Of a DNA stretch of 28,156 bases, positions 7,856 through 22,539 are shown one piece after another. A model generated the notes under the pieces. It saw only the letters and a list, made by a program, of their open reading frames with translations, made no database searches and was not told where the DNA came from. The position numbers and the translations under genes are program-made. The stretch covers positions 1 through 28,156 of the forward strand of contig JAGUYV010000034.1 of the NCBI GenBank assembly GCA_020061125.1, written 5' to 3'. This DNA is from a bacterium (GTDB lineage: Bacteria; UBP15; UBA6099; DSWB01). Position 1 is the stretch's first letter, and each line of letters begins with the position of its first letter.

Positions 7856-7940
7856 GCCGTTTGCCGCTGCTGCTTGCAGAGTAATGCCAGTGCCATCAAC
7901 ACCCCGGTTTTCATGAAACCGCTTGCAACCTGCATCTGCG

Positions 7941-7969
7941 TTGACATTCAGCCGGAACGGGATTAGAAA
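7941..7969 (+). promoter_or_regulatory. Candidate promoter for the RsiV-like lipoprotein gene
   Basis: A perfect TTGACA (7941-7946) is followed after 17 nt by TAGAAA (7964-7969), about 75 nt before the ATG at 8044. Confidence 0.45.
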
Positions 7970-8043
7970 TGCGGAATTGGCGGGGAGCGAAGCTCTTTCG
8001 CCGCAATCTGAACAAACATGTCCGGAGATGACGGGGAGGGACT

Positions 8044-8826
8044 ATGGGCAGGGCGCGCACAATTTTGTTTTTGGTGGTTCTGTTGCTGCCGGGCTGCGCA
8101 TCGCAGAAACGGGTGGAATCCGCGCCCTCGGCCGCGCCCAAGCCGGTTGCGGCGGAAAAGGAATCTTCGCGGGATAAAGAAATTTATTCGGTTCTGGAGT
8201 ACCGCGCCGAGGATGAACACACCACTGTGATTATCCGTTATCCGCAATTCAACATGCCCGGACTGGACAAGCGGATCAAAGACAGCGCCATGAAGCCCCT
8301 GGCCGGGTTCCGAAAAACCATCGAGGAAGAATATCTCGATGCGGACATGGAAGCCGAGGGCGCCAATCCGCATTATGAATTGATTGTGGATTTTGATGTC
8401 CGCATGCTGACCCGGGATCTGTTGAGCCTGATGTTCACGCAATACATTGATTACAACGGAGCGCACCCCACGACATCGTGCGCGTCGCTGGCCGCGGACA
8501 TGAAAACGGGCGAGCCAATCACCCTGCAAAGCCTGTTCAAGCCGGGCGCGGATTATCTCGCGGCCATTTCCCAGGCCACGGTTGCGCACTTTATGGACAC
8601 CCTGGAGGACGCGGATGCGGACTGGGTCAACACGGGCGCGGGACCGCAACCGGAAAATTACGAAGTCTTTTATCTGCAGCCTTACGGCGTGGTGTTTTAT
8701 TTCAATCCTTATCAGGTCACTTCATACGCCCAGGGTCCGCAGGAAATGCATTTCTTCGTGCTCGACGATCCCATGGCCGGAATAATGGCGCCCGACATGA
8801 TCGAAAAGCTACAGGAAACGCATTGA
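8044..8826 (+). CDS. Lipoprotein with RsiV/PdaC-like DUF3298 domain
   Basis: The 260-residue product has a lipoprotein signal with lipobox LLPGC (Cys18), then a low-complexity Ala/Pro/Lys linker. Residues about 45-120 resemble the DUF4163/PdaC-type N-terminal part. Residues about 128-250 match DUF3298/RsiV: YNGAHPTTSCASLAADMKTG, LQSLFKPGADYLAAIS, and GVVFYFNPYQVTSYAQG. In Bacillus RsiV this fold is the extracellular lysozyme-sensing part of an anti-sigma factor. Here there is no transmembrane or cytoplasmic sigma-binding part and no sigma-factor gene nearby. It may bind peptidoglycan-related ligands or inhibit an enzyme at the envelope (inference). GGGGAGG at 8034-8040 precedes the ATG. Confidence 0.85.
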   Translation: MGRARTILFLVVLLLPGCASQKRVESAPSAAPKPVAAEKESSRDKEIYSVLEYRAEDEHTTVIIRYPQFNMPGLDKRIKDSAMKPLAGFRKTIEEEYLDADMEAEGANPHYELIVDFDVRMLTRDLLSLMFTQYIDYNGAHPTTSCASLAADMKTGEPITLQSLFKPGADYLAAISQATVAHFMDTLEDADADWVNTGAGPQPENYEVFYLQPYGVVFYFNPYQVTSYAQGPQEMHFFVLDDPMAGIMAPDMIEKLQETH

Positions 8827-11713: not shown

Positions 11714-12025
11714 TCACGCGTTGTTTCGTGCTTGCTGGATGACTTCATGCCGAGATTCAATAACCGACTGGAACGCACCGCTGATGCCGTGCCAGTCCAC
11801 GATATCCACGCGAAAAGGAAGCTCGGATTCTTCAAATGCGCTTGTCAGAGCGGCTTGCGCCGCAAGAGAGAGCTTTTCGCGATCCACGATGGCGATGTCA
11901 ATGTCTGAATATTTCGCGGCTCCGCCCGTTACCCTTGATCCGAACACGCGCACTTCCGCATCGGGCACATGCTGCTTAAGAATGCGCAATATCAATGCGC
12001 GATGATCCGGTTGCAGGTCAATCAT
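11714..12025 (-). CDS. MNT-type nucleotidyltransferase (antitoxin of HEPN/MNT pair)
   Basis: The 103-residue protein is a minimal nucleotidyltransferase. It has FGSRVTGG (Gly29-Ser30), SDIDIAI giving Asp41 and Asp43, and a third acidic residue Asp74 in RVDIVDW, so the catalytic triad is intact. Proteins of this type (HI0073/MntA) pair with HEPN proteins; the Shewanella MntA antitoxin transfers AMP onto a tyrosine of its HEPN toxin. The start overlaps the HEPN stop by 8 nt, so the two are coupled, with the HEPN gene first. It is convergent with the LprI-like gene. Confidence 0.9.
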   Translation of the reverse strand: MIDLQPDHRALILRILKQHVPDAEVRVFGSRVTGGAAKYSDIDIAIVDREKLSLAAQAALTSAFEESELPFRVDIVDWHGISGAFQSVIESRHEVIQQARNNA

Positions 12026-12446
12026 TTCCCGGCCCGTTCAGTTCCTTGAGTTTTTGAATCAGAAAGCCCGCATCCGTAATAAACCCCGGCAGAGCGCCTA
12101 GCACCTCTTCGGCCTTGTCCTCGTCGTAGGTGTGGCTTGTAAGATTCCTCGCCTGCCGGTACAGAAAAAAAGCCTGAACATCGGGTATCAGCCCCGATTC
12201 TCCGGCATGGCGCATGATGTCCCGAAACGACATTTCATTATATTCCCGCGGGGTTGCGCTCATTGCCATGAGCTGCCTTTTGATGAATTTGCACGCCAGT
12301 TCGTATGTGTATTCAAATCGTTGCACCACGGAATCCCGAAGGGCGTCCGCCATGTCCGTATCATCCGGCCCAACGGATTCCATGAGCGCAACAGCTTTTT
12401 TAAGACTTGCATACGCTTTTTCAAGACTGTCTATAATCAGCGCCAT
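12018..12446 (-). CDS. HEPN-domain protein (HI0074/HepT-like toxin)
   Basis: The 142-residue alpha-helical protein belongs to the HI0074-type nucleotidyltransferase substrate-binding family. It has FEYTYELACKFIKRQL at about 44-59 and FFLYRQARNLTSHTYDED at about 93-110. The latter contains RX4HXY (Arg100, His105, Tyr107), the motif of HEPN RNases, in which Tyr is the AMPylation target in the Shewanella HepT/MntA system. The expected role is a tRNA- or mRNA-cleaving toxin silenced by the MNT protein. The ATG at 12446 has GGGAGGA 4-5 nt upstream, which rules out the longer start at 12500. A TATAAT (minus strand, 12510-12505) about 60 nt upstream may be its -10. Confidence 0.88.
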   Translation of the reverse strand: MALIIDSLEKAYASLKKAVALMESVGPDDTDMADALRDSVVQRFEYTYELACKFIKRQLMAMSATPREYNEMSFRDIMRHAGESGLIPDVQAFFLYRQARNLTSHTYDEDKAEEVLGALPGFITDAGFLIQKLKELNGPGND

Positions 12447-12571
12447 TATTCCTCCCGTACCCTCCATGCGCACGGCCCAACCGCTTTGGCTGTCCGCCAT
12501 CAGAATTATATATCAATCCCGAGCCGTGCCGCGCGCTTTGTCTATTCCCGAACGCTTTTTCTCCGCGCATC

Positions 12572-12600
12572 TTGACATCCAGGCAACGGCGTGAGATAAT
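12572..12600 (+). promoter_or_regulatory. Strong sigma70-type promoter of the methyltransferase operon
   Basis: A perfect TTGACA (12572-12577), an optimal 17-nt spacer and GATAAT (12595-12600) lie 39 nt before the TetR start codon. This is the best promoter match in the window. The last base of the -10 is the first base of the palindrome at 12600-12617. Confidence 0.75.
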
Positions 12601-12617
12601 GACTGACTAATCAGTCA
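12600..12617 (+). promoter_or_regulatory. Palindromic operator, likely bound by the TetR-family regulator
   Basis: TGACTGA-CTAA-TCAGTCA is a perfect 7-bp inverted repeat around 4 bp. It covers the end of the -10 box and the predicted transcription start, where a bound repressor would block RNA polymerase. Its form is close to the Bacillus FadR box (TGAATGAMTANTCATTCA), which is bound by a TetR-family fatty-acid regulator. Autoregulation is inferred from position. Confidence 0.75.
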
Positions 12618-12638
12618 AATTGTGGCAGGAGCGGTTTC

Positions 12639-13301
12639 ATGGCTGTAACAAACAAGGAGAACGGCGCGGAAACCCGAACTGCGGGCAACGGCCGCGCCGC
12701 GCTGCGAAAGGCCGAAACCCGCGCCCGCATCAAGGCCGCGGCCCGCGCCGTGTTCGCGGAAAAGGGCTACGAAAAGGCCAATGTATCGGACATCGTGCGC
12801 GCCATCGGCATGGCCCAGGGCACCTTTTATTACCATTTCCAGGACAAGAAATCCATTCTCATGGAAATGCTCAATGAGTATTTTGATCAGTTCCGCGCGG
12901 TCATGAGCGACTGGATGCAGTCCGAGGACGCGGCGCCGGATGTGACTTACATATTCGCCCGGCGCGTGGCCGTGCTGCTTTATGAAAACAAAGATCTCAC
13001 GCACATCATCATGCAGGAAGCGCACAATGCCGACGAAGATGTGCGCCGCCTGATCCATGGGTTCAACCGCTTTTTCTATGAGCAGGTGCGCTCGGGCCTG
13101 GACCTGGGCGTGGCACTGGGGCTGGTGCGGCCCATGGACACGCGCCTGGCGGCCGTGGCCCTGGTGGGCATGATTCGCGAAGTGGTCGCGAACAGAACCC
13201 GGAGCGGAGAAGACATTGACATCGAGCACCTGATCCGGGAGCTTGCGGAATTGCAGAATCACGGCATCCGGTTGAGGCCGGGCGCCGGGAACAATTTTTG
13301 A
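12639..13301 (+). CDS. TetR-family transcriptional regulator
   Basis: The 220-residue protein has an N-terminal HTH at about 25-72, with the TetR signature ARAVFAEKGYEKANVSDIVRA followed by IGMAQGTFYYHFQDKKSILMEML. A basic 24-residue extension precedes it. The C-terminal ligand-binding domain (about 85-210) is helical, with ALVGMIREVVANR, resembling the C-terminal domains of FadR/PfmR-type acyl-CoA-sensing repressors, though the ligand cannot be told from sequence. AGGAG at 12627-12631 precedes the ATG. It is the first gene of the operon and only 12 nt before the next one. With the operator overlapping the promoter, it probably represses the whole operon, itself included, until a pathway metabolite binds. 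Confidence 0.93.
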   Translation: MAVTNKENGAETRTAGNGRAALRKAETRARIKAAARAVFAEKGYEKANVSDIVRAIGMAQGTFYYHFQDKKSILMEMLNEYFDQFRAVMSDWMQSEDAAPDVTYIFARRVAVLLYENKDLTHIIMQEAHNADEDVRRLIHGFNRFFYEQVRSGLDLGVALGLVRPMDTRLAAVALVGMIREVVANRTRSGEDIDIEHLIRELAELQNHGIRLRPGAGNNF

Positions 13302-13313
13302 GGAGGATCTCTC

Positions 13314-14951
13314 ATGCCATCCCTTGAGGAACGATTGAGATCGCGCCTGACGACCGTGGCCGCGAAAGCCGTCGAGGAGATGACCACGAACACCTTTTCG
13401 GGGTATCTGGTGAAGAAACTCATCGTGCCCGGCTCTTTCCGCAACACCGCGGACGGCGAAGGTGCGTTCAACGGGTTCCAGATCCAGGTGAAGAACAAGA
13501 TCGGCGTGGCCACCATCGTGGGCTGCACGCCGGTCAAGATTGACGGCGAAGTCTTTCCCGTGGAGCAGATCCGCATCGAGCGCAAGGGCCAGGTCCTGCG
13601 CGCGGCGGACCTTTCCGAAAGCCTGCCCATCGCCACGGGGTTCGGCGACGAGATGATGATCGTCATCGAGGACGATCAGGGACTGGAAGCGGGCAGGCAC
13701 ACGGCCCAGCTCGGACTCAAGATGGTGGGCCTTGGCATCGTGCAGGTGACATTCGACGAGACCTTGAGCGGGCCGGGCTGCGAAAAACGCACGCGCAAAG
13801 CCGCGCCCGCCACGGACGGCGCGGACGATTTTTCGGATGTCATGCGCCGCACCGTGGAAATCGCCGCACAGCACATCGGCGCCAAAACGCTTGCGGATTG
13901 CGCAAAGGTTGTGCGCGGCATCGTGGTGGATTTCAGCGACATGGCCGCGCAGTACAGTGTGCGCGTATCCGAAGACGGCGGCGCGGAATTCGTGCCCGGC
14001 GCCATCGGCGGCGAGAAAATTCTCACCATCAAAACCACGCGCGCCGCGTTCCACAACATGGCCCACAACCGCCTCAACCCCGGCATCGCCTACGCGCGCG
14101 GCGACATCCGCCTCGAAGGCATCCCCATTCTGAAACTGCGCGGCATGGACCCCGTGATCACCGGCATTTTCCACGGGTATCGCGCGGCGTCCGAGGGCAT
14201 AGAGTTCGACGCCGCGGCAGCGGCCGGGCAGCACGGGGTCATCGAGGAGATCTTCGGTTTCCTGGTCATGTTTCTGGACGAAGCGCTCAAGGCGCTGGAC
14301 AAGGCGCTGGGCGTGTTCGGAGTCAAATACTTCTACGAGAAGTCGCTGAACCGCATTGAATTCGTGTGGTCCATACTGGATCGCGAAGTGCGCCGTGTCG
14401 TGGGATTCGGCAAGGGCGGAGCGGCCGGCGCAAGCGCGCCTGCCGGTGCGGTGGATGAAACCGGGCAAGCGCCTGCGCCCGCGGAAAAGCCGGCCGAAAC
14501 CCTGCGCGACAGGCTCAAGAGCCGCATCTCCACGGCCATTGAAACCGCAGTGGGCGACGCCGCCAAAACCGCGGTCTCCGGCTATCTGGTCAAGCGCCTG
14601 GTGGCGCCCGGAAGTTTTCGCAACTTCAGCGAAAACGGCCAGGACCAGGGCTTCGAGGTCAAGCTTAAGAACAAGCTCGGCACCGCCACGGTCATCGGGT
14701 TCAGCGACATCATGGTGGACGGCGAAGTGTACGCCCTGGATCGGATCACCCTGCACAAGGAACGCAAAGTCCTGCCCGCGTCCGACATTTCCGAAAGCAA
14801 GCCGCTGCTGGTGTCGTTCGGGGACGAACTGCTGGTGCGCGTGTCCCGGCCCGGCGGCATGACGCCCGGCAAACACCGCGTGACCATGGGCGTGCGCATG
14901 GTTGGCGTGGGCGATGTGGATGTGGATTACGAAGAAAAGCTCACCCAGTAA
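13314..14951 (+). CDS. Two CGDB/DUF6379-like repeats flanking an SCP2-like domain
   Basis: The 545-residue protein has an internal duplication. Residues about 3-152 and 395-544 align throughout; for example GYLVKKLIVPGSFRN pairs with GYLVKRLVAPGSFRN, and GLKMVGLGIVQVTFDE with GVRMVGVGDVDVDYEE. Each repeat looks like the DUF6379 / C-glycoside deglycosidase beta-subunit domain (NGFQIQVKNKIG..., VDGEVY..., beta-rich). Between them, residues about 172-290 resemble an SCP2 sterol-carrier-like lipid-binding domain (MAAQYSVRVSEDGGAEFVPG, NMAHNRLNPGIAYARGDIRL), followed by a helical linker and a Pro/Ala hinge (about 365-395). There is no signal peptide, so it is cytoplasmic. As the first structural gene it may bind or present the substrate to the methyltransferases (inference). 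GAGGAGG precedes the ATG. The domain names are from memory of the families and need profile checking. Confidence 0.7.
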   Translation: MPSLEERLRSRLTTVAAKAVEEMTTNTFSGYLVKKLIVPGSFRNTADGEGAFNGFQIQVKNKIGVATIVGCTPVKIDGEVFPVEQIRIERKGQVLRAADLSESLPIATGFGDEMMIVIEDDQGLEAGRHTAQLGLKMVGLGIVQVTFDETLSGPGCEKRTRKAAPATDGADDFSDVMRRTVEIAAQHIGAKTLADCAKVVRGIVVDFSDMAAQYSVRVSEDGGAEFVPGAIGGEKILTIKTTRAAFHNMAHNRLNPGIAYARGDIRLEGIPILKLRGMDPVITGIFHGYRAASEGIEFDAAAAAGQHGVIEEIFGFLVMFLDEALKALDKALGVFGVKYFYEKSLNRIEFVWSILDREVRRVVGFGKGGAAGASAPAGAVDETGQAPAPAEKPAETLRDRLKSRISTAIETAVGDAAKTAVSGYLVKRLVAPGSFRNFSENGQDQGFEVKLKNKLGTATVIGFSDIMVDGEVYALDRITLHKERKVLPASDISESKPLLVSFGDELLVRVSRPGGMTPGKHRVTMGVRMVGVGDVDVDYEEKLTQ

Positions 14952-14966
14952 AGGAGGCGTGCGCTC

Positions 14967-16382
14967 ATGATATTTCGAAAGCTGAAAGTGCTGAACGACG
15001 ACGAAATGCTCAAGATCGTGGAAGGCGCGTTCCGGATCCTGCAAACCACGGGCTGCCGGTTCGAGGACCCCGCATGCATGGACGAACTCGAAGCCATCGG
15101 GTGCTCCGTGGACCGCGATTCCCTTGTGGTAAAGTTCCCGGAGGACGCGATCTTCGACGCCCTGGAATCGGTGCCCTCGGTCACGCCCCCTGACAATCTG
15201 CCCAAGGCGCGCGTGGCCAGCGCCAACAAGGGCTTCCTGCTCGACTACCACACGCGCAAAATGCGCCGCGGCAAGACCGAAGACGCGCGCAAGATCATCA
15301 CCCTGTGCAACAATCTCACCAACATCACCCTGGCCTCGGCCGGCGTGGTGCAGGACGATGTGCACAACGACGCGGTCGAGGTGTTCAACACGGCGCTGCT
15401 GCTCAAGTATTCCGAAAAGCTGTTCAACCAGTGGGTGTACAACACGGACAATGTGCCGTTCGTGCTGGAGATGGGCGAGATTGTCACGGGCGGCGCCGAG
15501 GAGTTGAAGCAATCGAGCCTGCTGAACTACATGCTGAACCCCATCGCGCCGCTCCGGTTCCCGCCAACGCAATTGAAAATGACGCGCCTGTACGCACAGC
15601 GGGATCTGCCCCTGTCCGTGGCGTCCATGACCCAGACCGGGAGCACCGCGCCCGCCACCATGGCCGGCGCGCTCGTGGTGTGCACGGCCGAACTGCTCGC
15701 GGGCCTCGCGTGGATCCATTCCCTGAACAGCAAAAGCCCGGTGGGGCTGGGCGCGCTCACACAGGTGTGCGACCTGCGCACCGGAGCGCAGCTCTACGCG
15801 GGTCCGGAGCAGGCCATCATGTTCCTGGGCATGCACCAGATCATCCGCTATCTCGGCTACACAAGCGGCAACACATCGTTCGAGACCGATTCCTGCGACT
15901 TCGATTTTCAGAACGGATGGGAGAAGGCCCTGTCCGGAGTGTTATGCTGGGCCGCGGGGTTCGACATGTTCGGCCAGGCCGGGTTCCTCATGGACGGGTT
16001 CTCCATGGAGCAACTGGTTCTGGACAACGAGGCTATGGGCATGCTGCAGCGCGTGGGCCAGGGCATGGTGGTGGACGAGGATGCGCTGGCGTTTGATACG
16101 ATCAAGGCCGTGGGGCCAGGCGGCAACTTCCTGGGCGAACGGCACACCATGCTTCACGCGCGCGATTTCTGGCTGCCATCGGTGTTCCCGCGTGTGAGCT
16201 TCGAGCAGTGGCAGAAAGAGGGCGCGCGCCACATCATTGATGTGGCGCACGACAAAGTGGAGCAAATTCTCGCGAACAGCGCCCTGGAACTACAGGTGAG
16301 CGAAGACCAGGCCAGGGCCATTGACGATGTGGTGCGCCGCCGCCTCGCGCAGGTGGGCGGTTCCTGGGAAGGGGTGATCTGA
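14967..16382 (+). CDS. MttB-superfamily corrinoid methyltransferase 1 (non-pyrrolysine)
   Basis: The 471-residue protein belongs to the trimethylamine methyltransferase (MttB/COG5598) family of TIM-barrel enzymes, which move a methyl group from a methylated amine or quaternary amine to a corrinoid protein. Supporting segments are VEGAFRILQTTGCRFEDPAC, LLKYSEKLFNQWVYNT, SMTQTGSTAPATMAGALVV, LNSKSPVGLGALTQVCDLRTG and the C-terminal GNFLGERHTMLHARDFWLPSVF. Length is near the family norm. There is no in-frame TAG, so it lacks the pyrrolysine of true MttB and resembles the MtgB/MtpB/MtcB group that act on betaines or carnitine. AAGGAGG lies 15 nt downstream of the previous stop. The substrate is unknown. 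It is clearly paralogous to the next gene but quite divergent. Confidence 0.9.
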   Translation: MIFRKLKVLNDDEMLKIVEGAFRILQTTGCRFEDPACMDELEAIGCSVDRDSLVVKFPEDAIFDALESVPSVTPPDNLPKARVASANKGFLLDYHTRKMRRGKTEDARKIITLCNNLTNITLASAGVVQDDVHNDAVEVFNTALLLKYSEKLFNQWVYNTDNVPFVLEMGEIVTGGAEELKQSSLLNYMLNPIAPLRFPPTQLKMTRLYAQRDLPLSVASMTQTGSTAPATMAGALVVCTAELLAGLAWIHSLNSKSPVGLGALTQVCDLRTGAQLYAGPEQAIMFLGMHQIIRYLGYTSGNTSFETDSCDFDFQNGWEKALSGVLCWAAGFDMFGQAGFLMDGFSMEQLVLDNEAMGMLQRVGQGMVVDEDALAFDTIKAVGPGGNFLGERHTMLHARDFWLPSVFPRVSFEQWQKEGARHIIDVAHDKVEQILANSALELQVSEDQARAIDDVVRRRLAQVGGSWEGVI

Positions 16383-17786
16383 ATGATTTTCAACCAGCTC
16401 GACATTCTGTCCGAAAATGAAATCGAACGCATTCTGGACACCAGTTACCGGATTCTTGAAGAGGTGGGCCTGCGGTTCGAGTGGGCGCCTGCGCTCGACA
16501 CGCTCGAAGCGCGCGGGTGCATGGTGGATCGCCAGGCCATGCATGTGCGCATGCCGCGCAAACTTGTCGAGGAAGCCGTGGCGGGCATGACGCCCCTGGC
16601 GCGGCCCCAGGATTATCCCAAAATCTTCTGGGCGCCCTGGATCGGCATGAACCTCATCGAGTTCGAAACCAAAACCCGCCGTCCCGGCCGCCTCGACGAT
16701 TGCCGCAACATTGTAAACCTCGTCAACAATCTCGAAAACATTTCCGTCTCCTCAACAGGCGTGGTGCCCCAGGATGTGCCCATCGAGATCGCCGATGTGT
16801 TCATGGCCGAACTGCTCTTCAAGTATTCGGAAAAGATTTTCACCACATGGACATACACCATCGAGACCGGGCGCGACCTGGTGGAGATGGCGCTGGCCGT
16901 GACCGGAGGCGAAGAGGAGTTTCGCAATTCCAAGGTGCTGAACTATCTGGCGGAGCCTGTCACGCCCCTCAAGATGCCGCGGCACATGCTTGAGATCATG
17001 ACCCTGTATGCCCAATACGATCAGCCCATCAACATGGGGTCCATGGTGCAGGTCGGCACCACCGGTCCGGCCACACTGGCCGGGTCCGTGGCCCTGCAGA
17101 TGGCCGAGAACATGGCCGGGCTTGCGTACCTGTACTGCCTCGGTTCCAAATCGCCCGTGGCGCTGGGCGGCCCCATGCAGACCAGCGATATGCGCACGGG
17201 CCGCTGCCTGTATGCCGCACCCGAGCTGTCACTGATTCATCTGGCCCTGGTCGCGTGCGCGCACCACCTTGGCTACATGTCGGGCTGCACCTCGGGACTG
17301 TGCGACGCCAACACCATGGATTTCCAGTGCGGATGGGAGCGCGGCCTGTCCGGCGTGCTGCTCTGGGCCGCAGGCTCGGAAAGCATCGGCATGCGCGGCG
17401 AAATCGGCGGAGGCGAGGGCTTCAGCATGGAGTCCCTGGTGGTGGAAAACGAAATGGGCGGCATGCTGCGCCGCATCAGCGAGGGCATCATCGTGAACGA
17501 CGAGACCCTGGCGCTCGACATCATCGAGAAAGTCGGCATCGGCGGCAACTACCTGTACGAAACCCACAGCGCGCAGCACGCACACGATTTCTGGCAGCCC
17601 GAGGTGTTCAGCCGCAAGCAGTACGCCCAGTTCTGGGAGAATTACAGGCACATCGAGGAGCGCGCGCATGAAAAGGTCGCGCGCATCCTTGACACCAGCG
17701 AACTCTCGCTCCAGGTGGACGAGGATGTGGCCCGCGAGATAGACCGCATCGTCAAAGCGCGCGTGGACAAGCTCAAATCCGCATGA
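16383..17786 (+). CDS. MttB-superfamily corrinoid methyltransferase 2 (non-pyrrolysine)
   Basis: The 467-residue protein is a second MttB homologue. It starts on the base after the stop of the first, with its ribosome site (GAAGGGG) inside that gene. Shared landmarks are LFKYSEKIFTTWTYT, SMVQVGTTGPATLAGSVAL, LGSKSPVALGGPMQTSDMRTG, CGWERGLSGVLLWAAG and GGNYLYETHSAQHAHDFWQP. No in-frame TAG is present. Relative to its partner it differs at several places expected near the active site: CTSGLCDANTMDFQCGWERG here against NTSFETDSCDFDFQNGWEKA there, plus a GEIGGGEGFSMES loop. The two could form a hetero-oligomer or act on two substrates or successive methyl groups (inference). It is followed after 12 nt by the corrinoid protein. 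Confidence 0.9.
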   Translation: MIFNQLDILSENEIERILDTSYRILEEVGLRFEWAPALDTLEARGCMVDRQAMHVRMPRKLVEEAVAGMTPLARPQDYPKIFWAPWIGMNLIEFETKTRRPGRLDDCRNIVNLVNNLENISVSSTGVVPQDVPIEIADVFMAELLFKYSEKIFTTWTYTIETGRDLVEMALAVTGGEEEFRNSKVLNYLAEPVTPLKMPRHMLEIMTLYAQYDQPINMGSMVQVGTTGPATLAGSVALQMAENMAGLAYLYCLGSKSPVALGGPMQTSDMRTGRCLYAAPELSLIHLALVACAHHLGYMSGCTSGLCDANTMDFQCGWERGLSGVLLWAAGSESIGMRGEIGGGEGFSMESLVVENEMGGMLRRISEGIIVNDETLALDIIEKVGIGGNYLYETHSAQHAHDFWQPEVFSRKQYAQFWENYRHIEERAHEKVARILDTSELSLQVDEDVAREIDRIVKARVDKLKSA

Positions 17787-17798
17787 GGAGGCCGCGTC

Positions 17799-18434
17799 AT
17801 GGCTGACTTTGAAGCGTTGAAGAATTCCGTGATTGACATGGACCCGGACCGGGCCGTGGAACTGACGCAGTCCGCGGTGGCTGAAGGCGTTGCGCCCCTG
17901 GACATCGTGAACACGGCGCTGATTCCCGGCATTGATGTCGTGGGCCAGAAGTTCCGCGACTTCGAGTACTTCCTGCCCGAGGTGATCATGGCGGCCAAGG
18001 CGTTCAAGGCCGCGTTCGAGGTGATCCTGCCGCAGTTGAACGAGGCCGGTTACGAGCCTAAGGGCAGGGTGCTGATCGGCACCGTGTCCGGCGACAACCA
18101 CGACATCGGCAAGAACATTGTGATCGCCCTGCTGCAGGGCAGCGGATACGAGGTGCATGACGCGGGCGTGGATGTGTCCGCGCAGCGGTTCGTGGAACTG
18201 GTGCGGGACATCAAGCCGCATGTGGTGGGCATGTCCGCGCTGCTCACCACAACCATGGCCGTGATGCGGGACACCATCGCGGAACTGTCCGGCGCGGGGC
18301 TGCGCGATTCCGTGAAGGTCATCGTGGGCGGCTCGTGCGTGAACCCCGAGTTCGCGCAGAAGATCGGCGCGGACGGTTACGGCGAGGATGCGTCCGAAGC
18401 GGTCAAACTCGTGGATCGCCTGCTCGCGGTGTGA
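17799..18434 (+). CDS. Corrinoid (B12-binding) methyl-carrier protein, MtbC/MetH type
   Basis: The 211-residue protein has the two-part structure of methyl-carrying corrinoid proteins. There is an N-terminal helical cap (about 1-88: ALIPGIDVVGQKF, FEYFLPEVIMAAKAFKAAF) and a C-terminal Rossmann-like B12 domain (about 89-211). The lower-ligand motif is intact: GDNHDIGKNIV with His101 replacing dimethylbenzimidazole, followed by GMSALLTTTM and a late glycine motif (VIVGGSCVN). It should carry the methyl group as methyl-Co(III) between the MttB proteins and the methyl acceptor. GAGGAGG precedes the ATG. It lies directly between the methyltransferases and the homocysteine methyltransferase, which matches its expected place in the pathway. 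No reductive activase (RamA-type) is in the window. Confidence 0.95.
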   Translation: MADFEALKNSVIDMDPDRAVELTQSAVAEGVAPLDIVNTALIPGIDVVGQKFRDFEYFLPEVIMAAKAFKAAFEVILPQLNEAGYEPKGRVLIGTVSGDNHDIGKNIVIALLQGSGYEVHDAGVDVSAQRFVELVRDIKPHVVGMSALLTTTMAVMRDTIAELSGAGLRDSVKVIVGGSCVNPEFAQKIGADGYGEDASEAVKLVDRLLAV

Positions 18435-18487
18435 CCGCCTAATGCGGTTCGGCTTGAGAGCATATTGCGCCACAGGGAGGCATTGCC

Positions 18488-19363
18488 ATGGATTTGCTTT
18501 CACTCCTCAAACAAAAGAAAGTTCTGATTCTCGATGGGGCCACGGGCACGCAGCTTGCGCAGCGCGGCGCGCCCGCGGGCGGCCGCGCAAACATCGAAGC
18601 CCCGGACAAGGTCACGGCCGTGCACAGGGCCTACATTGACGCCGGATCCGACTGCGTGATCACCAACTCCTTTTGCATGAACCGCATTTACATGAAGGCG
18701 AACAGCTTTTCCGTAAGCGTTTCGGACATGAACGCGCGCGCCGCGGAACTGGCGCGAAAAGCCGCAGGAGACCGCGCCCTTGTGCTTGGAGGATTCGGAC
18801 CCACCGGGGAATTGCTCAAGCCCGTGGGCAACATCACCGAAGCGGAGTGCGAGGATGCTTTCGCGGAACAGGCGCGCGCCCTGGCGGACGCGGGAGTGGA
18901 CGCGTTCATCATCGAGACCATGATGGACATGAACGAGGCGGCGTGCGCGGTGCGCGCGTGCAAGCGGAACTTCACCCTGCCCGTGATCGCATCCATGACA
19001 TACGCCACCACGCGCGACGGCGGCCGCACCACCATGGGACACCGCGCAGAGGACTGCGCGCGCATCCTCGCCGCCGCAGGCGCGGACATTTTGTCCTGCA
19101 ACTGCGGCGACCTCGACCCCGCGGAGACCGCCATCATTGTTTCATCCTATAAAAACGCATCGGATCTGCCTGTGCTGGTGGAGCCGAATGCGGGCAAGCC
19201 TGTATTGGACGATAACAACAACGCCGTGTATTCCATGCCGCCCGCGGAATTCGCCCAGGGCGTTCTGGAGTGCATCCGCGCGGGTGCGGCCCTGGCCGGC
19301 GGGTGCTGCGGCACCACGCCTGATCACATCCGCGCCCTGGCTGAACTTGCCGCGTCCCTTTGA
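18488..19363 (+). CDS. Stand-alone homocysteine S-methyltransferase domain protein
   Basis: The 291-residue protein corresponds to the N-terminal homocysteine-binding barrel of MetH, or to MmuM/BHMT. It has ILDGATGTQLAQRG at about 14-27, IETMMDMNEA, and the three zinc-thiolate cysteines that hold and activate homocysteine: Cys206 in NCG and Cys273/Cys274 in GGCCGTTP. It has no methyl-THF, B12 or activation domain of its own, so it must receive its methyl group from a partner; the corrinoid protein encoded 53 nt upstream is the obvious one. The product would be methionine. Similar stand-alone proteins can also use S-methylmethionine or betaine. AGGGAGG lies just upstream of the ATG. The somewhat longer gap before it contains only a weak 5-bp hairpin. 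Confidence 0.92.
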   Translation: MDLLSLLKQKKVLILDGATGTQLAQRGAPAGGRANIEAPDKVTAVHRAYIDAGSDCVITNSFCMNRIYMKANSFSVSVSDMNARAAELARKAAGDRALVLGGFGPTGELLKPVGNITEAECEDAFAEQARALADAGVDAFIIETMMDMNEAACAVRACKRNFTLPVIASMTYATTRDGGRTTMGHRAEDCARILAAAGADILSCNCGDLDPAETAIIVSSYKNASDLPVLVEPNAGKPVLDDNNNAVYSMPPAEFAQGVLECIRAGAALAGGCCGTTPDHIRALAELAASL

Positions 19364-19385
19364 AAACCGCCGGAGGATTGCTCCC

Positions 19386-20576
19386 ATGACCCAGAACAAG
19401 CATTTCGGAACCCGTGTCGTCGGAGGGTGGAAGATGCCGCATCCTTCAACGAGGCCCATCAATCCGCCGCTGTACCAGAGCACATCCTACATCTACGACG
19501 ATCTCGATGCGTACATGGAAGGCGGATCCGAGGCCATGCTCGGACAGGGCGGCCGTTTTTTCTATTCGCGGACCGGCAATCCCACCACGGCCATGTTCGA
19601 GCACAAGATCGCGGAACTCGAGGGCGCTGCGCGCGCCGTGGCATTCGCCAGCGGAATGGCCGCCATCAGCACGGCCCTCCTTGGCCTGCTCAAAACCGGT
19701 GACCGCATCGTGGCACACAGCAAAATGTACAGCGCGTCCGACACCCTGTTCGGCGAGTATCTGCCCCAGTGGGGCATCAAGGTGGATCTTGCGGATCTCA
19801 CGGACCCGCGCCAGTTGAAAAAGGCGCTTTCGCGCCCGGCCAAAGTTCTGTTCATCGAGACGCCCGCCAATCCTCTGGTGGAGATCATTGACATTCCCGA
19901 GGCCGCGAAACTGGCCAAGGCCGCGGGCGCAACCGTGGTGGTGGACAGCACCTGGGCAGGTCCGTATCTCATGAAGCCCCTGGAGCTTGGAGCGGACCTT
20001 GTGGCCGCGAGTTCCACGAAATACATCAGTGGGCATGACGACGCCCTGGGCGGCTATGTGGCCGGCCCCGCGGATCTGGTGGCGCAGGTGGACAACTACA
20101 TGCTCGTGCTGGGCGGGGCCATGAGCCCCACGCACGCGCTCTACACCATGCGCGGCCTGCGCACCCTGCACATCCGCATGGACCGCCACGGCGCCAACGC
20201 GCTCGAAGTCGCACAATTCCTCGAATCGCATCCCAAAATCAAGAAGGTCTGGTATCCCGGACTCAAGAGCCACCCCCAGCACCATGTCGCGAAAAAAATC
20301 ATGACCGGGTGGTCCGGCATGATCGCGTTCTGGGTTCGCGGCGGCGCGGAACAGGCCCGGGCGCTGCTGAACAGCCTCGAAGTGTGCAATGTGGCCGTAA
20401 GCCTGGGCGACGCCTGCACCCTTATCGAACACCCCGCCACCATGACCCACATCACGGTTGACAAAGAGCGCCGGGACCGGCTCGGCATCACGGACAACAT
20501 GATCCGCCTGTCCGTGGGCCTCGAAGATGCGCGCGACCTGGTCCGCGACCTGGACCGGGCGCTCATGCGCATCTGA
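19386..20576 (+). CDS. Cys/Met-metabolism PLP-dependent enzyme (gamma-lyase/synthase type)
   Basis: The 396-residue protein is a trans-sulfuration-type fold-I PLP enzyme. It has YSRTGNPTTAMFEHKIAELEGA (Tyr60-Ser-Arg binding PLP phosphate), AFASGMAAISTALLGLLKTGD, ETPANPL, and the PLP lysine Lys212 in SSTKYISGH. The C-terminus has VAVSLGDACTLIEHP and LSVGLEDARDL. The family includes cystathionine gamma-lyase/synthase, methionine gamma-lyase and O-acylhomoserine sulfhydrylases, which sequence alone does not separate well. The segment where methionine gamma-lyases usually carry a catalytic Cys (after the LYG motif) reads KMYSASDT here, so a classical methionine gamma-lyase is not certain. The start is the ATG at 19386 after GGAGGA; the open frame further upstream is antisense noise. 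It is the last gene of the operon. Confidence 0.93.
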   Translation: MTQNKHFGTRVVGGWKMPHPSTRPINPPLYQSTSYIYDDLDAYMEGGSEAMLGQGGRFFYSRTGNPTTAMFEHKIAELEGAARAVAFASGMAAISTALLGLLKTGDRIVAHSKMYSASDTLFGEYLPQWGIKVDLADLTDPRQLKKALSRPAKVLFIETPANPLVEIIDIPEAAKLAKAAGATVVVDSTWAGPYLMKPLELGADLVAASSTKYISGHDDALGGYVAGPADLVAQVDNYMLVLGGAMSPTHALYTMRGLRTLHIRMDRHGANALEVAQFLESHPKIKKVWYPGLKSHPQHHVAKKIMTGWSGMIAFWVRGGAEQARALLNSLEVCNVAVSLGDACTLIEHPATMTHITVDKERRDRLGITDNMIRLSVGLEDARDLVRDLDRALMRI

Positions 20577-20593
20577 CTCTGTCCGCAGGCTCC

Positions 20594-20642
20594 GACGGAA
20601 ATCCGGGTTTCGATATCCGTCCCGTTTCCGTCAATCCTTTTT
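20594..20642 (+). terminator. Rho-independent terminator of the methyltransferase operon
   Basis: GACGGAAA (20594-20601) and CGGG (20604-20607) pair with CCCGTTTCCGTC (20621-20632). This gives a 12-bp stem with a 2-nt bulge and a 13-nt loop. Five T residues follow at 20638-20642. It begins 18 nt after the last stop of the operon and overlaps the 3' end of the convergent GH98-like gene. Confidence 0.65.
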
Positions 20643-22430
20643 CCAGTCTATTTCGATATCCATGGTCCCGTTGTGATCGAGGATAAGTTTCAGCTCACCC
20701 GGTTCCCATTCGGATTTCAGCCGGCCCAGTTTGCCGGCAACCAAGCGCACTTCGGGGCGCTCTCCTTGCAGTCCGAGCAGTTCAATCACGGTCGTGCGTA
20801 TTGTGGAGTCCGTGGGGTTTGAAATGTATTTGTTCAACACATAATCGCAGTATTGTTCGTTGTTGAGGTATTGGTTGTCCCAGACATCGGCGTCGCTGTC
20901 TATCCGGTAGTTGCTGATGTGCAGGGAAACGCCGCCTGGTCTCTGGCGGAGAATTCCGAAGGTGTGCGGGGGCAGGCTTCCGGCCGCCCGCAGATCCTGG
21001 CGGTCCGAGAGCTGGAAGTCGAATCCGGCTGTTGTGTTCGAGTTTTCATTCGGGTTCGCGAAAAGCCATGCGGCGCCGTTGTTCACAAACCATGCACCGC
21101 CCGATCCCGCGGCAGGATAGAGATTGTCAAAAAAGATTTTTTTGGCCTCGGGATTCACCAGGTTGTCCTTGTAAAACTCGTCGTCTATCACAGTGGGGAA
21201 CAATGCGTTTGCGGACTCATCGGCGAGCATGGGTATGATGGGGATGAAATAGTAGCGGCCCGTGGAAGGCAGCCATTCATAGTGAGTGCTGTTCTCCGGG
21301 CCGTAAAGAGCGGTGAACAGGTGGTCCTCGCGAAGTGTGCGGGGCGCGGCCTGGGAAGGGCGGTATGCGGCTTTGATTCTGGCACGCACCGCATCGCGAT
21401 CAGGGATGAGCTTGTGCTGAATTATCTGGCGGATGAGCGGCAGAATGACATTGTCAAAAGCCGGGGTTGTCCTGGAGCCGTCGCAGGACGAATAGCCCTG
21501 GAAAAAAGCCTCCAGAGAAAACAGGGATGCGCCGCCGGATGCGGCGACAAGCCACTCGATGCCGTATAGCGCGTCCGGATACGAGAACACGGATTTCCAG
21601 GGCTGGGCGCTCCGGTGAGGGGCCATGGATGGTTTGTAGAGCTGCTCGAATCCTCCTTCCCACCACAACCAGCCTTCGCTGTGAACGCCCCAGGCGGCGG
21701 TTGTGCCGGTCACCCAGAAACCCAGGACTGCCGCGTCCGATGTGAAGCGGCGGCCGCTCCCATTGTGCTTGTGCGTTAGAATGACATGCGCCCCATATTT
21801 GCGTATGGCTTCGAAAAGCGCGGGTTCGGCCCCGGCTTTGACGAACACATGGGGGGCCTTGGGAAACGGCGCGTCCCAGCTCATGTCCTGCCAGATGAAG
21901 TACCCGCCGTGTGTTGCGGCCACTTCCATGTATCTCGTCATCTTTTCCATGAACGCGGCGTCAAGGTTGGCGCCGGTCAATCCTCCCGTGGCGCTGATTT
22001 CGGAAATGTTCAGCCCGATCACATTCGGGTACTTGTCGAAAAGTCCGGCCCAGTATTCCATGGGAGTGTCGTTCGTGCTGTTGAATCCTTCCGTTTCGAT
22101 GATTGCTGGCGCGTTGAGTTTTTGCGCCATGTCCAGAACAGACTCAATCCACGCGCGCGTTTCCGGGGAATCCGATTTCATGGGGTTCACATGCACGCCG
22201 AAATACGGCTTCACATCTTCCGGAAGATTTTTCCAGAAGTTTTCCAGTTGGGACGGGTTCGCTCCATTGTAGACGCTGCTGTAAACAAAAAGGGGATTCT
22301 CGTTGTTGATTGGGCGGCGCAGAATAGTGTGCGCCTGTTGTGCCGATGCGGTGAACGAAAACAAGAGCAGGACGGCCGCTGTCGCAAGACTTGTGAGAAA
22401 TCGCGCCCCTCTTGTGCAGAATCCGGTCAT
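20631..22430 (-). CDS. Secreted glycoside hydrolase, GH98-like
   Basis: The 599-residue protein has a signal peptide (hydrophobic about 14-27, ASA-QQ). The mature part begins HTILRRPINNENPLFVYSSV. It continues with a barrel containing LPEDVKPYFGVHVNP, WIESVLDMAQKLNAPAIIETEGF, KYPNVIGLNISEIS and GGYFIWQDMSWDAP, a layout matching GH98, a family of endo-beta-galactosidases acting on glycans such as blood-group antigens. Glu residues in the IETEG and NISE strands are candidate acidic catalytic residues, not assigned with certainty. The C-terminal part (about 430-599) is beta-rich, resembling the GH98 C-terminal domain. There is no recognisable separate carbohydrate-binding module. The start at 22430 has AGGAGAG 6-7 nt upstream; the in-frame extension to 22538 has no support. 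It is convergent with the methyltransferase operon. Confidence 0.75.
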   Translation of the reverse strand: MTGFCTRGARFLTSLATAAVLLLFSFTASAQQAHTILRRPINNENPLFVYSSVYNGANPSQLENFWKNLPEDVKPYFGVHVNPMKSDSPETRAWIESVLDMAQKLNAPAIIETEGFNSTNDTPMEYWAGLFDKYPNVIGLNISEISATGGLTGANLDAAFMEKMTRYMEVAATHGGYFIWQDMSWDAPFPKAPHVFVKAGAEPALFEAIRKYGAHVILTHKHNGSGRRFTSDAAVLGFWVTGTTAAWGVHSEGWLWWEGGFEQLYKPSMAPHRSAQPWKSVFSYPDALYGIEWLVAASGGASLFSLEAFFQGYSSCDGSRTTPAFDNVILPLIRQIIQHKLIPDRDAVRARIKAAYRPSQAAPRTLREDHLFTALYGPENSTHYEWLPSTGRYYFIPIIPMLADESANALFPTVIDDEFYKDNLVNPEAKKIFFDNLYPAAGSGGAWFVNNGAAWLFANPNENSNTTAGFDFQLSDRQDLRAAGSLPPHTFGILRQRPGGVSLHISNYRIDSDADVWDNQYLNNEQYCDYVLNKYISNPTDSTIRTTVIELLGLQGERPEVRLVAGKLGRLKSEWEPGELKLILDHNGTMDIEIDWKKD

Positions 22431-22460
22431 TCTTTGCTCTCCTCTCATCAAATGAAGACA

Positions 22461-22469
22461 AATATACCA
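22461..22469 (-). promoter_or_regulatory. Extended -10 element for the GH98-like gene
   Basis: On the minus strand, TGGTATATT (22469-22461) fits an extended -10 in an AT-rich stretch about 30 nt before the ATG. No good -35 is seen. Confidence 0.35.
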
Positions 22470-22539
22470 TATTTTACGAATAATGCTATCGCCGTTTCGA
22501 GCGCGGCGGGCTATGCTATGCAGGACGGAGCGGCGCATC

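Follow-up and report, generated by a model that had tools for sequence, protein, structure and literature searches.

To our knowledge, most members of the MttB superfamily have no known substrate, and work on them has centred on methyl transfer to coenzyme M (CoM) or tetrahydrofolate (THF). The known non-pyrrolysine MttB enzymes take only the first methyl group off a quaternary amine. A stretch of 28,156 nucleotides from a bacterium of the candidate phylum UBP15 (assembly GCA_020061125.1, contig JAGUYV010000034.1, positions 1 to 28,156; hereafter the window) encodes two non-pyrrolysine MttB homologues within a seven-gene operon that would instead direct the methyl group to homocysteine. Among the closest described systems is MtgBCDE of Ruegeria pomeroyi and Sinorhizobium, in which one corrinoid protein joins glycine betaine demethylation to methionine synthesis (described for R. 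pomeroyi) and the pterin protein MtgD is essential (PMC12478193). Both it and the UBP15 operon combine an MttB-family donor with separate corrinoid and PF02574 proteins around a single corrinoid hub. However, the UBP15 operon has no pterin-binding gene and contains two diverged MttBs, genes for a CGDB-SCP2 protein and a pyridoxal phosphate (PLP) enzyme, and MttB and corrinoid lineages of its own. The window's genome, a draft of 4.1 Mb that is 79% complete, offers only AcsE as a pterin-binding match, and standalone enzymes are found in its relatives.

Three other described systems share parts of this architecture. The Eubacterium limosum MttB members of known substrate (MtgB, MtpB, MtcB, MtyB and MthB, with MtqC-MtqA or MthC-MthA) are likewise non-pyrrolysine enzymes acting on a corrinoid protein, but hand the methyl group to THF through a THF methyltransferase (PMC12155760). 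MesA-C, the MetE-type core methionine synthases, probably draw the methyl group for homocysteine from corrinoid proteins, free of folate (PMC7857596); they belong to PF01717, for which no match was found in the UBP15 genomes examined. Corrinoid-dependent methyl salvage in type I mlp clusters is also thought to feed methionine, but through URO-D type transferases and not MttB and PF02574 (PMC10418091). The first-pass annotation knew of no described pathway with this exact set of genes. Searches of open-licence papers that paired homocysteine methyltransferase with either MttB or trimethylamine methyltransferase turned up no description of clusters like these, although MtgBCDE stands as a precedent for the principle.

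The operon and its signals are arranged as follows, in window coordinates.

12572 to 12600, plus strand: TTGACA-17-GATAAT promoter whose -10 box is preceded by TG; same arrangement 5′ of tetR in six of six genomes.
12600 to 12617, no strand: operator palindrome TGACTGA-CTAA-TCAGTCA, perfect, directly behind the -10 box; conserved in six genomes.
12639 to 13301, plus strand: TetR-family regulator (PF00440, PF17932); best NCBIfam match the FadR-like NF053878, 73 bits, below cut-off.
13314 to 14951, plus strand: protein with an SCP2-like domain between two CGDB/HMG-CoA_red_N beta domains (two stretches match PF19906 and PF25653 above cut-off).
14967 to 16382, plus strand: MttB1, MttB homologue of non-pyrrolysine type, Glu occupying the pyrrolysine position (PF06253, 243 bits).
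16383 to 17786, plus strand: MttB2, likewise a non-pyrrolysine MttB homologue, Leu occupying that position (PF06253, 236 bits).
17799 to 18434, plus strand: corrinoid protein of MtgC/MttC type (PF02607 and PF02310; DNHDIG cobalamin motif; best PDB match 1y80).
18488 to 19363, plus strand: single-domain homocysteine S-methyltransferase (PF02574, 218 bits; zinc motif NC...GGCC).
19386 to 20576, plus strand: Cys/Met-family PLP enzyme, ATG at 19386 (PF01053, 440 bits).
20594 to 20642, plus strand: terminator-like hairpin GACGGAAA...TTTCCGTC followed by CCTTTTT, between convergent genes (hairpin 20594-20632, z = -2.4).

These features are best read as a TetR-controlled demethylation operon built around a corrinoid hub, in which the methyl group passes to homocysteine to give methionine, a reading to which we give slightly better than even credence. 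Release of TetR from its operator by an inducer that is probably lipid-like or an acyl compound would allow expression of the operon. MttB1 and MttB2 would then move a methyl group from a substrate of quaternary-amine type to the Co(I) corrinoid protein, with the CGDB-SCP2-CGDB protein probably binding or presenting that substrate. In the window's lineage, the zinc-dependent homocysteine S-methyltransferase would take the methyl group directly from the methylated corrinoid protein, yielding methionine. RACo, which is encoded outside the operon, would re-reduce the corrinoid, and an amino acid of sulfur or homoserine type, connected with the pathway, may be the substrate of the PLP enzyme.

The physical unit is well defined. 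Seven intact open reading frames in one direction run from the TetR regulator through the Cys/Met PLP enzyme, with families assigned by Pfam and NCBIfam and intergenic gaps of 12, 15, 0, 12, 53 and 22 nt from 5′ to 3′. This bears out the layout proposed in the first-pass annotation (gaps of 0-53 nt, one promoter, one terminator), down to a promoter kept in six genomes; the hairpin at the 3′ end was not among the matches of a simple terminator scan of the window. By itself the promoter consensus match is not significant (one found against 1.8 expected). The promoter together with a palindrome just 3′ of it nevertheless occurs at the identical location in all six operon-bearing genomes, each of which has GACTGACTAGTCAGTC, or a sequence close to it, at the matching operator position. 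This recurrence makes it likely that the operon is autoregulated and inducible.

Conservation was assessed in seven UBP15 genomes, all of them draft sequences. The operon is present in six, the named relatives carrying it being ADurb.Bin236 and UBP15_UBA6099, so that the gene order anticipated from the window alone is kept among relatives and the arrangement of the seven genes is not a product of chance. All seven genes occur in order in the window's genome (G000), where they are contiguous, and in G005 of genus g4, where they are divided between two contigs, TetR-CGDB-MttB1 at the end of one and MttB2-Corr-Hcy-PLP on the other. Genus g3 (G002, G003 and G004, and G006 split over contigs) has TetR-CGDB-MttB1-MttB2-Corr-PLP, without the homocysteine gene; only g1 and g4 have that gene inside the operon. 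A pseudogene in the g3 gap between the corrinoid and PLP genes was considered and rejected, as nothing recognisable was seen by eye and the gaps (94 and 299 nt) are too short. The seven-gene form is probably ancestral, with the homocysteine gene lost in g3, because g3 and g4 share one family and the window's genus belongs to another. Each operon gene compared is under amino acid constraint, nonsynonymous divergence (dN) being well below synonymous divergence (dS), though the latter is near saturation. A contig scan of genomes with the MttB2 alignment returned only five UBP15 relatives, its peptide patterns being too specific for distant MttBs.

The two MttB proteins (METHYLTRANSFERASES) are 44% identical to each other, while MttB1 is 70-75% identical to its orthologues and MttB2 74-80% to its own. 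The closest other MttB among 386 sampled genomes reaches 32% identity, and plasmid searches yielded MttBs at only 25-30%. In the tree, the UBP15 pair forms one deep clade (100/100), to which neither MtgB nor pyrrolysine MttB nor the MttB-Act-Corr-Hcy cassettes described below belong. By sequence, then, MttB1 and MttB2 are an ancient duplicate pair of a deep lineage apart from MtgB, and this placement speaks against a glycine betaine methyltransferase of MtgB type. The Leu of MttB2 at the pyrrolysine position is also the MtgB residue. A pyrrolysine trimethylamine methyltransferase is likewise rejected, for there is no in-frame stop, TIGR02369 scores 278-280 against 525 bits, and the pyrrolysine position holds Glu or Leu. 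Superfamily membership itself is clear, with PF06253 scores far above the cut-off of 25 bits and the invariant residues E242, E281, D313, Q315 and E319 retained. However, where all 33 other aligned rows have a glycine, MttB1 has Lys and MttB2 either Lys or Asn. Replacement also affects an otherwise invariant proline, while most other invariants, the acidic ones included, are kept. These two replacements suggest that the substrate pocket probably differs from that of other members.

The proteins downstream retain the motifs that methyl transfer to homocysteine would use. The corrinoid protein contains both B12 domains of the MttC/MtgC type and a DxHxxG motif, and the homocysteine S-methyltransferase has its zinc cysteines intact. 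The latter is not a betaine-homocysteine methyltransferase (BHMT), as NF005718 gives 182.9 against 338 bits. In trees, the UBP15 homocysteine proteins and corrinoid proteins each form clades of their own. The PLP enzyme is closest to methionine gamma-lyase (44% identity; nearest PDB relative). Even so, a canonical gamma-lyase was rejected, because TIGR01328 scores 402 against 549.7 bits, Cys115 is replaced by Ala, and Lys239-Asp240 is missing in all full-length orthologues. Its sequence is 77% conserved whether or not the operon includes the homocysteine enzyme, which suggests a role independent of that enzyme. It was also discounted as the sole homocysteine-forming enzyme, since a paralogue adjoins a threonine-synthase-like gene.

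As to the acceptor of the methyl group, the window's genome, at its 79% completeness, yielded a single PF02574 protein, the homocysteine enzyme of the operon, and neither MetE nor MetH. No THF or CoM methyltransferase gene lies in the operon of any genome examined, and the AcsE of the window's genome sits in the acs cluster beside ACS. Several observations weigh against the favoured reading. The four g3 genomes, up to 97% complete, encode no PF02574 protein anywhere and keep all other operon genes, and hence the homocysteine enzyme is not essential to the operon's function. G001 has a homocysteine enzyme elsewhere in its genome but no MttB and no CGDB protein. A standalone methyl-THF:corrinoid methyltransferase is present in the six relatives of the window's genome, where it was not found but may be missing only through incompleteness; every UBP15 genome examined encodes a further corrinoid protein; and the structure model of the CGDB protein has low overall confidence. 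The claim that acceptor enzymes for CoM and THF are absent holds for the operon; in the relatives of the window's genome, the standalone enzyme makes THF a possible acceptor. The companion claim, that the homocysteine methyltransferase takes their place, fits the zinc cysteines, the solitary PF02574 protein and the lack of a MetE-type enzyme, and fails to account for the g3 operons. From these gene inventories, homocysteine is the best candidate acceptor in the window's lineage, with THF and the Wood-Ljungdahl pathway also possible there, and a THF/Wood-Ljungdahl route is likely in g3.

The alternative that survives best is a catabolic hub, in which THF would be the main recipient of methyl groups from the corrinoid protein, by way of an unlinked standalone methyltransferase or AcsE, with onward flow into the Wood-Ljungdahl pathway and homocysteine as a side branch or alternative use, as with MtgBCDE in Ruegeria (PMC12478193). 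The g3 genomes, with their operon lacking the homocysteine enzyme and their standalone methyltransferases, speak for it, and the window's genome encodes ACS alpha/beta and AcsE. Yet no genome places a THF methyltransferase gene in the operon and the window's genome has only the AcsE inside its acs cluster, and this alternative is considered somewhat unlikely as the main route. A split MetH is less probable still: the partners of the homocysteine enzyme would be a standalone pterin methyltransferase and the corrinoid protein encoded away from the operon, and its gene would only be co-transcribed with the MttB system. G001, which combines a homocysteine enzyme, a standalone methyltransferase and corrinoid proteins without MttB, speaks for such a model, but the homocysteine gene directly follows the corrinoid gene in two genera, and g3 possesses a second corrinoid protein and a methyltransferase but no homocysteine enzyme. 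Methanethiol as the end product, with the PLP enzyme acting as a methionine gamma-lyase or joining methanethiol to acylhomoserine and g3 making methionine from methanethiol, is very improbable given the failed gamma-lyase score and the altered residues of that enzyme, despite its conservation with or without the homocysteine enzyme, its nearest PDB relative and the MetX-MetY pair of g3.

That pair (L099:1477-4275, i.e. G002:C11; also L098 and L087) occurs in genus g3 where no known methionine synthase was found, a combination that auxotrophy would explain, as would the making of methionine out of methanethiol and O-acetylhomoserine. The UBP15 genomes with the homocysteine enzyme show no MetY.

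Hints at the ligand and the inducer come from the CGDB protein and the regulator. Orthologues of the CGDB protein are 55-58% identical. The SCP2 label given to its middle part finds mixed backing: PF02036 scores 12-14.6 bits (12.1 for the protein in the window), below the cut-off of 21.3, but Foldseek with a predicted, low-confidence model retrieves SCP2 structures (E about 3e-4) along with CGDB structures. The middle of the protein thus resembles the SCP2 lipid-binding fold in its model, which suggests a lipid ligand. Together with the FadR-like regulator, the SCP2-like protein is the reason to expect a lipid-like or acyl inducer. A C-glycoside deglycosidase beta subunit was rejected, as the beta domains match PF19906 but the operon has no alpha-subunit gene. 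Elsewhere, two proteins (L050:8740-10266 and L049:8146-9759) are fusions of a CGDB/HMG-CoA_red_N domain with a URO-D domain. The first, in G046, is encoded divergently from an adjoining corrinoid gene (7890-8387, partly masked) whose product is a close relative of the operon corrinoid protein, which ties the CGDB domain to corrinoid methyl transfer independently of the operon. Degradation of the betaine lipid diacylglyceryltrimethylhomoserine (DGTS) loosely matches the gene set (trimethylhomoserine head group, SCP2, homoserine-type PLP enzyme). The first-methyl limit of known non-pyrrolysine MttBs and the need of the PLP enzyme for a free amine both stand against it. In two g3 genomes, a glycerophosphodiester phosphodiesterase gene is convergent to the operon (L045:3824-4681 and L046:14974-15831) and may hint at substrates of glycerophosphocholine type.

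Outside UBP15, the same functional combination recurs. The 386 genomes are not a designed sample; 41 of them contain MttB, six of these being UBP15, and neighbours of MttB loci were detected with small home-made profiles. Among 41 MttB loci read outside UBP15, a homocysteine methyltransferase lies in the cluster at 14 and a THF methyltransferase at two, with both at one locus. The premise of the first-pass annotation, CoM or THF as the normal destination for methyl groups from MttB relatives, does not agree with these sampled neighbourhoods. The clusters occur in unrelated bacteria (L154, L167, L169, L174, L175, L179 and eight further loci), and six loci show the fixed order MttB, B12-activation domain (PF02965), corrinoid protein, homocysteine enzyme, with some 4-nt overlaps. 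These MttB-Act-Corr-Hcy cassettes (such as L154, L167, L169, L174 and L175) resemble the UBP15 operon in uniting MttB, corrinoid and homocysteine genes without a pterin methyltransferase. The UBP15 operon is not itself such a cassette, as it lacks a PF02965 gene and its MttBs fall outside the well supported clade (100/99) that holds most cluster MttBs.

In G216, G105 and G277 (97, 100 and 96% complete), the MttB-corrinoid-homocysteine cassette is the only methionine-synthase candidate; no match to MetH, MetE or a THF:corrinoid methyltransferase was obtained there, and their pterin proteins are only dihydropteroate-synthase-like (identity checked for G216). MttB is apparently the only visible methyl source for methionine in these three. 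Of the other eleven cluster genomes, eight encode a large MetH-like protein in addition, one encodes MetE and one has a THF methyltransferase gene within its cluster; the last, 83% complete, has none of these. Since the UBP15 MttB, homocysteine and corrinoid proteins occupy their own clades, the combination probably arose more than once. MttB feeding methionine synthesis looks widespread in this sequence survey, with the UBP15 operon as a separate, lineage-specific version. The broader proposal is possible but doubtful: MttB, corrinoid protein and homocysteine enzyme would constitute a class of folate-independent methionine synthase in several bacterial lineages, and the UBP15 operon would have been assembled independently to use a methyl group from a lipid-bound compound presented by CGDB-SCP2.

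Two plasmids carry MttB homologues in other settings. On a Halomicrococcus plasmid (NZ_CP100467.1; L203:5098-8419), the gene adjoins urocanate hydratase near an aromatic amino acid ammonia-lyase, suggesting a substrate of histidine-betaine type, and on a Terrarubrum plasmid (NZ_CP091854.1; L202:5998-8536), bmt is directly followed by an MttB homologue within a sarcosine oxidase cluster.

Around the operon, the minus strand upstream (11714-12500) encodes a small nucleotidyltransferase and a HEPN-like protein that, from their sequences, resemble an MNT-HEPN toxin-antitoxin pair, and a glycoside hydrolase of family GH98 (20631-22538) lies convergent to the operon on the opposite strand. A tRNA-Arg call at 12659-12752 is antisense inside tetR and was taken as a false positive, and no Rfam family was matched in the window. 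In one UBP15 draft, a GlmM-like start comes after the gene of a Sul2-like dihydropteroate synthase (L018:1348-2295, G006:C332); this is probably a mobile resistance element that was misbinned.

Should homocysteine prove to be a common acceptor, many MttB genes would encode methionine synthases or salvage routes and not catabolic demethylases. Some apparent methionine auxotrophs would then not be auxotrophic, relying instead on cobamides and a methyl donor. As a test case, the UBP15 operon is compact and probably inducible, and it adds two new MttB lineages as well as a partner that may bind lipids.

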